Assembly (NCBI GenBank): GCA_031291075.1
Contig: JARLJS010000160.1
Span: forward strand, 1 to 60,074
Direction of reading: 5' to 3'
Source of the DNA: Nevskia sp.
Lineage (GTDB): Bacteria; Pseudomonadota; Gammaproteobacteria; Nevskiales; Nevskiaceae
DNA: 60,074 bases
In this document: positions 49,234 through 56,135 of the stretch, in pieces
Layout of the letters: each line of letters opens with the position of its first letter
Numbering within the stretch: the stretch's first letter is position 1
Program-made: the position numbers and the translations under genes
The notes under the pieces: generated by a model
What the model saw: the letters and a program-made list of their open reading frames with translations, nothing else
Databases searched by the model: none
Told to the model about the DNA's origin: nothing

Positions 49234-52005
49234 CTACAGTCGCCGTCCGTCCCGCAGCATGCGGGCGAAGTCGTCGGCCGGGACGGCGGGGCTGAACAGG
49301 AAGCCCTGGATCTCGTCGCAACGCAGCAGCCGCAGGAACTTGAGCTGCTCGTCCGAGTCGACGCCCTCCGCCACCACGCGCAGGCTCATCGAACGCGCCA
49401 GCGAGATGATGGTCGAGACGATGCCCATGGTGTCGGCGCTGTCGGTCATGCCGATGATGAAGGAGCGGTCGATCTTGACCGAGCTCACCGGCAGCTTGGA
49501 CAGGTAGGACAGGGAGGAATAACCGGTGCCGAAATCGTCGATGGCGAGCTGCACGCCCATTTCGCGCACGTCGCGCAGCTTGCCGATGTGCTGCTGCATG
49601 TCCGGCATCAGCACCGATTCGGTGATCTCCAGTTCCAGGCCCGCGGCTTCCCGCCCGCGCCCCTGCACCACCGCCCGCACCTCGTCGACGAAGTCCGGCT
49701 GGCGCAGCTGCAGCGGCGAGACGTTGACCGCAATGTGCGGCAGCGCCAGGCCCGCCGCGAGCCACCGGTTGCGGTCGGCGGCCGCCTGGCGCAGCACCCA
49801 GCGGCCGACGTCCAGGATCAGGCCCGTCTCCTCCAGCAGCGGCATGATCTGGGCGGGCGGCACCAGGCCGAGCTCGGGGCTGTTCCAGCGCAGCAGCGCC
49901 TCGGCGCCGCAGATAGTGCCCTCGCGCAGGTCCACCTTGGGCTGGTAGTAGAGCACGAACTCCGACTCGTCCAGCGCACGGCGGAGCTGCCCTTCCAGCT
50001 TCAGCTTCTGCTTGAGCGCCAGGCCCATCTGCTGGGTGTAGAACAGGTAGTTCTCGCCCGAGGTCTTGGCCTTTTTCAGGGCGGCCTCGGCGTTCTGGAT
50101 CAGGCTGTCGCCGTCGTCGCCATCCTCCGGGAATATGGCGATGCCGACCCGCGCCGACACACGCACCTCCTGGCCGGCCAGCAGGTACGGCCGGTTGAGG
50201 CCGTTCCACATGCGCTCGCGCATCACCGTGGCCAGCCCGGGGGTGTGGCGGAGGTCGGGCGCGATCACCGCGAAGCGATCGCCGCTGACCCGGGCCAGGC
50301 GGTTGGCGCCGCCGGCATAGCGGCGCAGCCGGCGGGCGAACATCTTGAGCAGCTCGTCGCCGGCAGCCATGCCCAGCGTGTCGTTCACGGTCTTGAAGCG
50401 CGCCACGTCCAGCAGCAGCACCGTCAGGCCTTCCTCCTTCTGCCGCGCCGCCTGGGCGTACTGGTTGAGGCGGTCGCTGAACAGCCGGCGGTTGGCGAGC
50501 CGGGTGAGCACGTCGTAATAGGCCAGGTAGTCGAGCTGCTCCTCGCGCGAGATGAACTCGAGCGCATAGGAGATGTCGCCAGCGAGCTCAGCCAGGAGCT
50601 TCACCTCGCTGTCGTCGAAGAAGTCGGATTCGCCGGCGTAGAAGCAGATGCAGCCGATCATCTTGTTGCCGGCCTGCAGCGGGAAGGCGGCCACCGAACG
50701 GAAACCGCGGCTCAGAGCCTCGTCTCGCCACGAAGCGAAGTCGGGGTCGGTGGCGATGTCGTTGCAGATGCGCGGCCGCCCCTCGCGCAGATTGCCGGCG
50801 CTGGGACCCCGCCCGGCGGGCTGTTCGCCGGACAGGCGGATGCGCTGCCGGCTGTCGATATACCCTTCGCTCAGGCCGCAGGACGCCACCGGGACCAGCG
50901 CATCCCCCTGCAGCCTGCCGATCCAGGCCATCGGGAACAGGCCCTGCTCGACCGCGATGCGGCAGGCGCCGTCGAACAGCTCCTGCTGGTTGCGGGCACG
51001 CACGATCAGGGTGTTGATGCCGGACAGCACGGCGTAGACGCGGTTGAGACGGCGCGCCGCCGCTTCGGCCTGCTCGCGCTGGATCACCTTCAGCTGCAGC
51101 GCCTCGTTGGCCTGGCGCAGCGCGTCCTCCGCCACCTGCTGGTCGTGGATGTCGGTGGCGGTGCCGACCCATTCGATGACCTTGCCTTCGGCATTGCGCA
51201 ACGGCACGGCGCTGGACCGGAAGTACCGGTAGGAGCCGTCCCGCATCAGCATGCGGAAGCGGTTTTCGTAGTTGCCGCCGCGACGAATCCCCTCCGCCCA
51301 GTCCTCGACGACGCGTGCACGATCGTCGGGGTGGACCACCGTCAGCCAGTCCTGTGCGTATGCCCGCTCCGGCGGCAGGCCGGTATAGCGCTCGAACACC
51401 GGCGATACGTTGAACACGCTACCCCTGGGATCGGCCAGCCAGACGATCTGGGTCGAAGCCTCCACCAGGGAGCGGAAGCGCTCCTCGCTGCGCTTCAGCG
51501 CCAGCTGTGCCAGCTTGCTCTCGTGGATGTCGCGGGTGGCGCCGACCATCCGCAGCGGCCCGGCGGCGTCATACTCGCAACGGCCGCGGGAATCCACCCA
51601 GCGCATGGCGCCGTCCTGCCGGATGATGCGGTATTCGGCCTCGTACTCGATGTTCTGGACGACGGCGGCGCGGAAGCGGGCAAACACCATGGGACGATCG
51701 TCGACATGGATGGCGTTGACGAAGTCCTCCAGGGTGGGGTTGGCACCAGGGGCCAGTCCGAAAATCGATTTGAGCGTTTCGCTCCATTCCAGGGTCTGGT
51801 TGGCGATGCCCCATACCCAGGTGCCGGCGCCGAACGCCTCGATCGCCTGCAGCAGCCTGTTGTCGCCGCCCAGCCGGCGCGATTCCGCCGGCGGCGCCTG
51901 CACGCCGACGCGATCCCCCTCCGGTTCGGTGGCGCGCGATTCGCCCGCGGCCTGCCAGTCGGAAGGCACGATCCGATCCTCGGCGTCCGGCTCACGACTC
52001 TCCAC
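49234..52005 (-). CDS. PAS-PAS-GAF-GGDEF-EAL protein, predicted c-di-GMP phosphodiesterase
   Basis: A 923-residue cytoplasmic protein. Domains are PAS (about 45-165), PAS (about 175-300), a short coiled coil, GAF (about 335-485), GGDEF (about 495-655) and EAL (about 665-920). The GGDEF loop is degenerate (RVSGDRFAVI, SGDRF for GGDEF), so cyclase activity is unlikely. The EAL domain keeps EALLRW, AVNVSP, LEITES, IDDFGTGYSS, VKIDRSF and VAEGVD. The start is GTG 52005, with GGAG seven bases upstream. It is the third c-di-GMP enzyme in 16 kb. It lies upstream of the chemoreceptor on the same strand, 124 bases away. Confidence 0.92.
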   Translation of the reverse strand: MESREPDAEDRIVPSDWQAAGESRATEPEGDRVGVQAPPAESRRLGGDNRLLQAIEAFGAGTWVWGIANQTLEWSETLKSIFGLAPGANPTLEDFVNAIHVDDRPMVFARFRAAVVQNIEYEAEYRIIRQDGAMRWVDSRGRCEYDAAGPLRMVGATRDIHESKLAQLALKRSEERFRSLVEASTQIVWLADPRGSVFNVSPVFERYTGLPPERAYAQDWLTVVHPDDRARVVEDWAEGIRRGGNYENRFRMLMRDGSYRYFRSSAVPLRNAEGKVIEWVGTATDIHDQQVAEDALRQANEALQLKVIQREQAEAAARRLNRVYAVLSGINTLIVRARNQQELFDGACRIAVEQGLFPMAWIGRLQGDALVPVASCGLSEGYIDSRQRIRLSGEQPAGRGPSAGNLREGRPRICNDIATDPDFASWRDEALSRGFRSVAAFPLQAGNKMIGCICFYAGESDFFDDSEVKLLAELAGDISYALEFISREEQLDYLAYYDVLTRLANRRLFSDRLNQYAQAARQKEEGLTVLLLDVARFKTVNDTLGMAAGDELLKMFARRLRRYAGGANRLARVSGDRFAVIAPDLRHTPGLATVMRERMWNGLNRPYLLAGQEVRVSARVGIAIFPEDGDDGDSLIQNAEAALKKAKTSGENYLFYTQQMGLALKQKLKLEGQLRRALDESEFVLYYQPKVDLREGTICGAEALLRWNSPELGLVPPAQIMPLLEETGLILDVGRWVLRQAAADRNRWLAAGLALPHIAVNVSPLQLRQPDFVDEVRAVVQGRGREAAGLELEITESVLMPDMQQHIGKLRDVREMGVQLAIDDFGTGYSSLSYLSKLPVSSVKIDRSFIIGMTDSADTMGIVSTIISLARSMSLRVVAEGVDSDEQLKFLRLLRCDEIQGFLFSPAVPADDFARMLRDGRRL

Positions 52006-52469: not shown

Positions 52470-53537
52470 TTGACCATCCGCAAAATCGTCCACATCGACA
52501 TGGATGCCTTTTACGCATCCGTCGAGCAACGGGATGACCCGGGCCTGCGCGGCAAACCGGTCATCGTGGCCTGGCGCGGCAACCGCTCCGTGGTCTGCGC
52601 CGCTTCGTACGAGGCCCGGACCTTCGGCGTCCGCTCGGCGATGCCTGCGGCCCGCGCGGAGCGTCTCTGCCCCGAGGGCATCTTTGTACCGCCGGACTTC
52701 GCCCGCTATCGCGCTGTGTCACAGCACACGCGGGAAATATTCCGGCGCCACACGGACCTGGTGGAACCCCTTTCGCTCGACGAAGCTTATCTCGACGTCA
52801 CCGAGAACAAAGGCGGCCTGCCCAGCGCCACCGATGTGGCGCGCACGATCCGGGCGCAAATCCTGGAGGAACTCGAGCTGACGGCGTCGGCAGGCGTGGC
52901 CCCCAACAAGTTCCTGGCCAAGATCGCGTCGGACTTCCGCAAGCCGAACGGCCTGTTCGTGATCAAGCCGGACGACATCGACAGGTTCCTGCTGCCGCTG
53001 CCGGTCGGCCGCCTGCCGGGGGTCGGCAAGGTGATGGAGGGGAAGCTGGCCGCACTGGGCATTGCCACGGTGGCGGAGCTGCGCGCAATCGAGCGCCCGG
53101 CGCTGGAAGCCCGCTTCGGCCGCTACGGCGGCCGCCTGCATGAGCTGGCGCGCGGCATCGACCAGCACGCCGTGGTGCCGCATCGCCCCACCCAATCCAT
53201 CTCCGCCGAGGACACGTTCGAGCAGGACGTGCCGCTGGACGGAACCGAACCGATGATCCGGCGCCTGGCCGAAAAGACCTGGGCCGCATCGCTCAAGGAA
53301 TCCCGCGTTGCCCGCACCGTGGTGCTCAAGCTCAAGACCAGCGACTTCCACATCATGACGCGCAGTCATACCCCCGAATCGCCGCCCGCCTCCTGCGAGG
53401 AATTGACCCGGATCGCGCTGGCGCTGCGCGAGCGCGTCGGGCTGGACGCGCGGGTGCGCTATCGGCTGGTGGGGGTGGGTCTGAGCAATTTCGAGGATCG
53501 TGACGAACTGCGCGCCCAGCAGGCGCTATTCCAGTAG
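52470..53537 (+). CDS. dinB: DNA polymerase IV (Y-family, translesion)
   Basis: A 355-residue protein. Catalytic blocks are HIDMDAFYASVEQRDDP (first two metal-binding positions) and PLSLDEAYLDVT (Asp/Glu pair). SYEARTFGVRSAMP, the helix-hairpin region GRLPGVGKVMEGKLAALGI and a little-finger domain follow. The C-terminus ends RAQQALFQ, short of an obvious long beta-clamp tail, although QQALF resembles a QxxLF clamp motif. The start appears to be TTG 52470 with GGGA upstream; no ATG fits the family N-terminus. No SOS box is visible. Confidence 0.94.
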   Translation: MTIRKIVHIDMDAFYASVEQRDDPGLRGKPVIVAWRGNRSVVCAASYEARTFGVRSAMPAARAERLCPEGIFVPPDFARYRAVSQHTREIFRRHTDLVEPLSLDEAYLDVTENKGGLPSATDVARTIRAQILEELELTASAGVAPNKFLAKIASDFRKPNGLFVIKPDDIDRFLLPLPVGRLPGVGKVMEGKLAALGIATVAELRAIERPALEARFGRYGGRLHELARGIDQHAVVPHRPTQSISAEDTFEQDVPLDGTEPMIRRLAEKTWAASLKESRVARTVVLKLKTSDFHIMTRSHTPESPPASCEELTRIALALRERVGLDARVRYRLVGVGLSNFEDRDELRAQQALFQ

Positions 53538-53543
53538 ACGCGC

Positions 53544-55034
53544 TCAGCCACCTTCGGCCAGGGCATCGGCGTCCCACAAGTCCCTGCCCGGATCCTCGGT
53601 CGAGATCAGGACCAGGGTCTGATCGGGCCGCATCTGCCCGGCGGCCTCGCAGGCCCAGCCGAGGGCGTAGGCCGTCGCCTTGGCCAGCGCGATGCCCTCC
53701 AGCCTGGCCAGCTCGCGCAGCGCCCGCTTGGCCGAGCTCTCACCGGCCTGCACCCGCTCAACGCGGCCGGTCTCCTGCAGCCAGCGATGTTCGCGCACCA
53801 GGCTGACGCACTCCACCCCCTGCAAGGAGCTTTGGGTCAGACGCCATTTGTCCGACGAGCGCATGTTGGTGTTCGGGTCACGGCCGGCGACCACCTCGAC
53901 GGACTGCAGCTCCGAGATCGGCTGCACCAGGACCAGCCGGCTCTGCCGATCCGCGATGAATGCGGGGAACAGCGCCAGCGCATCGATGTTGTCGCCGGAC
54001 CGCGCCACCAGCAGGCTCGGCGGCGGCTGCCCCAGCTCGGCCAACTGGCGCCGGCACTCGCGGCCGACCACCGCGGCGAATTCGTGCGACAGCGCCGTAT
54101 AGGGTTCCGGGGCGCCCTCGAGGCCGAACACGACGAATGTCTCCTCCGGACTGCCCGCCCAGTGCAACAGGGCCCACTCGCGCGCGTTGTCGCTGCTGTG
54201 TCCGCCTTCGTCCGGGCGCTCCATCAACCTGGCGCCGAGCAGGCGGATGCGGAAGGTGACAGCGGGGTGGCGGGCATGATCCTCCGGTGTCATGAACACC
54301 ACCGCTTCCATACCCAGCCGCGCGGCGATCGAAGCGGTCAGCACACCGCGGCGTCCGTCGACGGTAAAGGTCACCAGGGTCTTGCGGCCGAGGCGCTGCG
54401 CCAGCAGCGCCTGCCCCACCACGCTGATGATCAGCTGCGTATCCTGCGGCAACAGGTCCTCGCGCTTGAGGTGGATCTGCGCCCCGCCGATCTGTTCGGA
54501 CAGGCGCCGAAGCTGCAACAGGGGCGCGGGCCGCCGCGCCAGATAGGCCAGCTCCAGCTCCAGTTGCCGGTGCAGGGGCGGCTCGGCGCCAAGGGTGCTC
54601 ACCGCGTCCGCCAGCGCCTGGAAATGGGCGGTGAAACGCTCGTCGTCGCCGAGGCGACGTCCCTGCGCGAGCGCCTTCTCCGCATCGACGGTCATGCCGA
54701 CGAATTCGATGCGATCGCTGCCCTCGATGGAGAAAAGCTGCGCACCCGGTATCAGCATCCGTCCCATGCTCAGGCACCGGCGCCATTCCGGCGAGGCGCC
54801 CTTGTCGGCAACCAGCACGGCAAGCTCCTGCGCCTGGCTCAGGAACGGCTCGGCACGCTGCGTCTCGTAGTACAACTCGAGCAGCCTCAGCCGCAGCGCG
54901 ACGTTGTCCGGCTGGGCCGTGATCTGCCCCGTCAGCTCGGCGACGAGCCGGTCGTAATGCGAGGGTAGTACCTTGTCGATCGCCGTCTCCGGTGGTGCCA
55001 GCCGGATTTTGCTCCTGTATTCGCGCCCCGTCAC
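53544..55034 (-). CDS. Tryptophan-synthase-beta-fold protein lacking the PLP lysine (putative pseudoenzyme)
   Basis: A 496-residue protein. An N-terminal helical, TPR-like region (about 25-150, DNVALRLRLLELYYETQ) precedes a fold-type II domain homologous to TrpB (about 165-490). The homology is clear: RPAPLLQLRRLSEQIGGAQI, HLKREDLL, VGQALLAQRLGRK, LARLEGIALAKATAYAL. The catalytic segment is lost. Where TrpB has GGAHKTNQ, this protein has QDTQLIIS, so the Schiff-base lysine is Leu201 and the preceding His is Gln. TrpB's ETGAGQHG is FTVDGRRG, and the phosphate loop GGGSNA is RSGDNIDA. PLP catalysis is very unlikely. GTG 55034 is the only start covering the N-terminal domain, with a weak ribosome site. 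Confidence 0.8.
   Translation of the reverse strand: MTGREYRSKIRLAPPETAIDKVLPSHYDRLVAELTGQITAQPDNVALRLRLLELYYETQRAEPFLSQAQELAVLVADKGASPEWRRCLSMGRMLIPGAQLFSIEGSDRIEFVGMTVDAEKALAQGRRLGDDERFTAHFQALADAVSTLGAEPPLHRQLELELAYLARRPAPLLQLRRLSEQIGGAQIHLKREDLLPQDTQLIISVVGQALLAQRLGRKTLVTFTVDGRRGVLTASIAARLGMEAVVFMTPEDHARHPAVTFRIRLLGARLMERPDEGGHSSDNAREWALLHWAGSPEETFVVFGLEGAPEPYTALSHEFAAVVGRECRRQLAELGQPPPSLLVARSGDNIDALALFPAFIADRQSRLVLVQPISELQSVEVVAGRDPNTNMRSSDKWRLTQSSLQGVECVSLVREHRWLQETGRVERVQAGESSAKRALRELARLEGIALAKATAYALGWACEAAGQMRPDQTLVLISTEDPGRDLWDADALAEGG

Positions 55035-55205: not shown

Positions 55206-56135
<930 letters not shown>

Follow-up and report, generated by a model that had tools for sequence, protein, structure and literature searches.

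What does a tryptophan synthase β-subunit (TrpB) do once the Schiff-base lysine of its PLP cofactor is gone and a domain of another protein is joined to its N-terminus? The question is raised by a gene in the window, i.e., the whole stretch of 60,074 nucleotides analysed here from Nevskia sp. (contig JARLJS010000160.1). An initial annotation had described its product as a TrpB-fold pseudoenzyme fused to a helical-repeat region, and the sequence comparisons reported below support that description.

The fusion gene and its TrpB half

The boundaries proposed for the gene were exact. A single minus-strand frame runs from 55034 down to 53544, uninterrupted over 496 codons (Table 1). The same genome encodes a second fusion copy on another contig, 58% identical to the first, in addition to a normal TrpB.

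Table 1. Features of the fusion gene and its immediate neighbours (positions in the window)
Feature	Position	Strand	Details and evidence
FimV-TPR/pseudo-TrpB fusion ORF	53544..55034	-	496 aa, GTG start, stop codon within span
FimV-type internal TPR region, residues 24-109	54708..54965	-	local TPR profile, which included the window sequence itself (E 6.5e-33), and A2 profile
TrpB-like (PLP fold type II) domain, residues 134-479	53598..54635	-	TIGR00263 (134-476), PALP (166-479), structure model
Leu201 codon, PLP-lysine position (K87 of TrpB)	54432..54434	-	alignment to TrpB
FTVDGRRG, residues 223-230, replacing the ETGAGQHG loop; catalytic Glu109 gone	54345..54368	-	alignment
GDNID, residues 347-351, replacing the GGGSN phosphate loop	53982..53996	-	alignment
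Arg414, family-specific (31/31); Pro of GPEH in TrpB	53793..53795	-	alignment
DinB-type DNA polymerase gene, convergent	52470..53537	+	6 bases between its end and the fusion ORF; IMS E 1.3e-53
Short-chain dehydrogenase gene, divergent neighbour	55206..56135	+	domain match

A 393-aa open frame opposite the fusion gene (53787-54968, plus strand) appears to be the mirror frame of a GC-rich gene. Two genes away from the fusion, a PAS-GAF-GGDEF-EAL protein is encoded on the minus strand (49237-52005); its GGDEF motif reads SGDRF and appears degenerate. This neighbourhood of the window gene is not conserved. For HubP, an effect on a c-di-GMP phosphodiesterase has been reported (PMC12918733).

Homology to TrpB is evident from several searches. 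The NCBIfam model TIGR00263 matches with E 6.1e-49, but the score of 167.1 bits lies below the equivalog threshold of 392.45. Pfam PALP (PF00291) is matched above its cut-off (E 4.8e-19, 69.2 bits versus 35), and automatic annotation may thus name proteins of this kind TrpB-like PLP enzymes. The top PDB chain by sequence match is 5ey5_B (E 8.6e-48), and the protein is 35% identical to the genome's own TrpB across residues 139-480. These sequence matches are independent of the predicted structure, which gives the same picture: the model of residues 118-496 (pTM 0.77) adopts a TrpB fold, and superposes on PDB chains with TM-scores of 0.66-0.74 and rmsd of 4.5-7.0 among the 50 matches listed, all of which are natural, engineered or ancestral TrpB chains. 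Since TrpB rows were present in the predictor's alignment, this resemblance is partly built in.

The catalytic landmarks are altered as the initial annotation had proposed. TrpB GAHKINN aligns with DTQLIIS, placing Leu201 at the Schiff-base lysine and Gln200 at H86; the replacement of the ETGAGQHG loop and the loss of the glycine-rich phosphate loop were likewise recovered in the alignment (Table 1). The change of the adjacent His to Gln stands for the window protein and falls as a family trait, since 11 of 31 fusion proteins have His in this column.

The N-terminal half derives from FimV

The N-terminal region had been called TPR-like, which agrees with two lines of evidence: TPR structures in the PDB are hit by a profile built on this region, at E-values from 9e-6 upwards, and the corresponding helices have mean pLDDT values per ten residues of 81-97 over residues 31-90 of the full-length model, in which the N-terminal alignment rows are misplaced and the lobes badly placed (pTM 0.58). 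The region can now be assigned more precisely, to the TPR of FimV, which acts as a polar landmark and organises the pole of the cell. The N-terminal profile also matches FimV-type proteins of the same genomes, in their TPR part only. Furthermore, in 70 of 80 named TrpB loci, many of them from Burkholderiales, the strand that carries trpB also encodes a FimV-type TPR, 1.5-5 kb upstream; the remaining ten gave no such match upstream of trpB. All nine upstream frames scanned out of the 70 are FimV, with FimV_core and FimV_Cterm matches, one FimV_core match being partial and under its cut-off. In general, truA and trpF are the genes that separate fimV from trpB. The genome's own FimV matches FimV_core and FimV_Cterm and is encoded on the same strand as trpB, about 4 kb upstream of it; a trpF gene was recognised there by reading. 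Among the 80 named loci, the one that scores best against the genome's own TrpB shares 75% identity with it. The FimV-type frames upstream of trpB, together with the genome's own FimV, therefore identify the TPR of the fusion as FimV's internal TPR.

The recurrent proximity of the two genes in the 70 loci points to duplication of a fimV-trpB neighbourhood as the probable origin of the fusion, with the order's own locus as the likely source. It thus appears that fimV and trpB, genes that lie close together on the chromosome but are unrelated in function, were joined into one new protein. At least 25 of 26 fusion genomes contain a further FimV-type TPR match outside the fusion, so the fusion is an added paralogue. 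The C-terminal FimV domain TIGR03504 scores 54.6 bits in the genome's own FimV; it has no match in the window protein or in the five long relatives (see below) scanned against NCBIfam.

A family found within one order

Searching 85 genomes of the order with a profile (A2) built on the N-terminal region plus linker, and retrieving the loci that it matched, yielded at least 31 fusion genes in at least 26 genomes. Gene calls and start codons of the relatives come from a custom script, except at one locus (L215), where listed ORFs were used. The count of 31 includes the gene of genome G004 (L222/L126, contig C55), which is split, with its TPR and TrpB parts in two frames, by either a frameshift or an assembly error. 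Among the publications listed by our search, none describes a FimV–TrpB fusion in its title or abstract.

Beyond the order, samples of 369 genomes of the class and 398 of the phylum, which share some genomes and in which about ten candidates were scored per genome, contained no N-terminal-profile match reaching the TrpB junction end at E 1e-15, and neither did 14 named genomes at E 1e-5. In the 21 outside loci that we checked, no match extends past position 149 of the 464 in the model, stray negative-score matches being disregarded, and hence none includes a TrpB part; one of these loci was read by eye as FimV. When the class was searched with the full profile, true TrpBs dominated among the matches listed. 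Within these samples, the fusion family is found only in one order. Further TrpB-like genes in genomes G026 and G052 (L117:4814-6514 and L118:4454-5767), 29-33% identical to the window protein, lie outside the family; judging by the retained lysine and landmark motifs, they are true second TrpBs.

Members of the family differ in what precedes the TPR. Six long forms (G028b, G012, G001b, G021b, G022b and G446) all match FimV_N (PF25800) above its cut-off and have a hydrophobic segment before the TPR; FimV_core (TIGR03505) was matched in one of them, below its cut-off. From these domain matches, the six are predicted to be FimV-like membrane proteins ending in a pseudo-TrpB. Three others (G037, G021a and G032) carry a hydrophobic segment at their start, some 65-80 residues before the TPR. 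In the remaining members, leaving aside G004, whose TPR sits in another frame, no hydrophobic segment was detected before the TPR or in open codons upstream (maximal mean hydropathy 0.94). The long forms would thus be membrane-anchored, whereas the window form is apparently soluble. The three architectures, FimV_N-TM-TPR-pseudoTrpB, TM-TPR-pseudoTrpB and TPR-pseudoTrpB, occur in different genomes of the order and possibly represent intermediates.

All 31 fusion genes were aligned with 14 TrpBs of the same order as controls, with residues numbered as in Salmonella TrpB by reference to landmarks. Lys87 is present in 14 of 14 TrpBs versus none of the 31 fusions, where its column contains Leu (18), Ala (3), Ile (2), Pro (2), Met, Glu and Val (1 each) or gaps (3). 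Loss of the cofactor lysine at its column is therefore a family-wide trait that accompanies the N-terminal fusion, and the possibility of a single decayed copy is ruled out. The shared loss suggests that the dead enzyme was probably kept for a new, non-catalytic job.

The gene neighbourhood offers little on what this job may be. Across 30 of the 31 loci (L215 left out), with 15 read individually, no neighbour family recurs. In genus g11 (L199, L202, L205, L206 and L207), a radical-SAM gene adjoins the fusion, with carA-like and carB-like genes on the other side, the latter named by reading. At L215, the long form G028b (L215:8391-10967; G028, contig C20) lies between fliK and fliL in a flagellar cluster, on the opposite strand. 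A flagellar role suggested by this position was rejected: 19 of 26 fusion genomes have a FliM match versus 45 of 59 others, i.e., there is no association, and a purely flagellar role is unlikely given the seven fusion genomes lacking a FliM match, although some genomes without a match are incomplete. PilM is found in 85/85 genomes of the order and is thus uninformative on a link to type IV pili.

Phylogeny and selection

In the tree of TrpB domains, all fusions fall on one side of one branch with 100/100 support, recovered in 100% of 200 bootstrap trees, with the program's warning that long branches meet here and joins may be false. Three subclades are distinguished: A (n=21, including the window copy and G037), B (n=7) and C (n=3), the last consisting of the long G022b and the short G034 and G442. 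The TPR tree requires two changes, and one origin appears in only 2% of its bootstrap trees. One group (93/88) unites subclades B and C and G037 with eight same-order FimVs and three others, and the rest of subclade A is placed elsewhere with weak support. Nevertheless, topology tests on the TPR do not reject either a single clade of all fusions (p-AU 0.463) or a single clade of fusions and same-order FimVs (p-AU 0.302). We read these results as one putative fusion in the ancestry of the order, after which the membrane part would have been lost more than once; two separate fusion events are the alternative reading.

Pairwise dN/dS estimates (Nei-Gojobori, 14 pairs) range from 0.06 to 0.33 where the window copy is not involved (12 pairs) and reach 0.50 and 0.56 in the two pairs that include it. 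In the TrpB-domain tree, its branch (0.78) is longer than those of the other five genus-g1 members in its subclade group, with 0.10 for its paralogue. The long branch and the raised dN/dS indicate that the window copy may be under relaxed constraint, and one could suppose that it is a decaying duplicate within a functional family. Among the 18 subclade-A members compared (of 21), it has also changed six of the 56 positions that do not vary in the other 17, a number to be set beside 0-3 changes in 16 of those 17 and 6/62 in G022a. We nonetheless consider decay unlikely, as all 496 codons are open with no stop, 50 of the 56 invariant positions are kept, and dN/dS remains well under 1. The window copy is a fast-evolving paralogue, not a wreck.

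The remodelled active site and alternative roles

Losses in the TrpB half extend well beyond the lysine. Glu109 is present in 14/14 TrpBs and 0/31 fusions. Asn236 is likewise found in none of the fusions, with Asp instead in 24/31. The Pro of GPEH is Arg in every fusion, and the M/C170 position, which we take to be a tunnel residue of TrpB, is Arg in 28/31. Of the positions that presumably form the interface with TrpA, K167 and N171 are each kept in a single member and R175 in four. At the equivalent of Salmonella D305, 13 fusions have Glu and seven have Asp.

These changes bear on the idea that the pseudo-TrpB regulates the cell's own tryptophan synthase, by binding TrpA or by pairing with active TrpB. 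There is a precedent in plants, where the dead TrpB paralogue TSB-like activates TrpA and releases free indole, with changes at E105 and D300 (Tm numbering: Glu105 replaced, Asp300 to Glu) named as key in the study (PMC12727527), which also treats the roles of the catalytic, indole-activating Glu and of D305. The fusion family resembles the plant protein in lacking the catalytic Glu throughout and, in the 13 members noted above, in carrying Glu at the D305 equivalent. However, this Glu is not universal, the plant study names two residues as key (PMC12727527) while the fusions have lost the PLP lysine in addition, and most of the presumed TrpA contacts, as well as the tunnel position, are replaced. 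Moreover, no trp gene was recognised by reading among the three genes on either side of the fusion in 15 loci. A plant-type, TrpA-activating role is therefore disfavoured on the residues compared, and we regard regulation of tryptophan synthase in general as improbable.

Some lysines have accumulated elsewhere in the family. Fusions are enriched in Lys at residues 218 (19/31), 436 (17/31) and 336 (14/31) of the window protein, and two members, G043 and G049 (L211 and L213), have a lysine one residue before K87, in the H86 column. In G022b, G034 and G442, the three members with a gap at Lys87, the 21 residues around the site contain no Lys, and the sole near-invariant Lys column in fusions is K190 of the KRED motif (28/31), which is common to TrpB. 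The two adjacent lysines and the enriched columns speak for a moved lysine, which is nevertheless unlikely for most members, and the fusion proteins would lack PLP. An enzyme with new chemistry in the old cleft, working either with no PLP Schiff base or by means of a relocated lysine, would fit the near-invariant new Arg and Asp residues and the two adjacent lysines, but it is the least probable explanation that we considered, as every fold type II enzyme known to us depends on PLP, the remaining cleft residues vary among subclades, and 29 of 31 members do not have the adjacent lysine.

A non-catalytic adaptor as the favoured reading

On balance, though with modest confidence, we favour a family, seen within a single order in the genomes searched, that arose from a duplicated fimV-trpB neighbourhood and combines the FimV TPR with a dead TrpB as a non-catalytic adaptor module. 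Following duplication, FimV's internal cytoplasmic TPR would have become fused to TrpB, whose cofactor lysine, catalytic glutamate, phosphate loop and most TrpA-contact residues would then have been lost. The TrpB fold may have been retained for dimerisation and for a remodelled binding pocket, both at the service of a FimV-derived adaptor that would be anchored in the membrane in the long forms and apparently soluble in the window form. TrpB is normally a dimer, and dimerisation would thus be the simplest use of the fold. Judging from the Arg and Asp residues gained by the family, some other ligand or partner may bind in the cleft or at its rim. A signalling or assembly protein, as proposed in the initial annotation, is plausible within this framework, and the adaptor may be connected with what FimV does at the cell pole.

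More speculatively, the fusions might constitute a polar-landmark family that uses the dead enzyme as an output or sensing domain, in which the PLP cleft, rebuilt with invariant Arg and frequent Asp residues, would bind a new small ligand and thereby change which client the FimV-type TPR engages, so that cell-pole organisation would be coupled to metabolism; we consider this version possible but doubtful. If the dead TrpB does steer FimV-type clients, the use of a cofactor-enzyme fold without its cofactor becomes directly testable.

Comparison with known systems

Compared with TrpB, the fusion proteins share the fold and, in the window copy, about a third of the sequence, but differ in the lysine at the PLP position, Glu109 and K167, in the altered phosphate loop, and in scoring below the equivalog cut-off. 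Plant TSB-like, as described in PMC12727527, is similarly a non-catalytic TrpB paralogue without the indole-activating Glu; unlike it, the fusion family has also lost the PLP lysine and most TrpA-contact positions, and its TrpB is joined to a FimV TPR. The other relevant system is FimV/HubP. According to PMC12918733, FimV of P. putida and P. aeruginosa has a second TPR in the cytoplasmic region and HubP does not. By profile matches, the N-terminal region of the window protein is homologous to FimV's internal cytoplasmic TPR, and the six long relatives further share FimV_N and the hydrophobic segment before the TPR. By contrast, the window protein has neither the periplasmic FimV_N/LysM part nor the hydrophobic segment, and in the fusions a TrpB fold takes the place of the C-terminal TIGR03504 domain of FimV.
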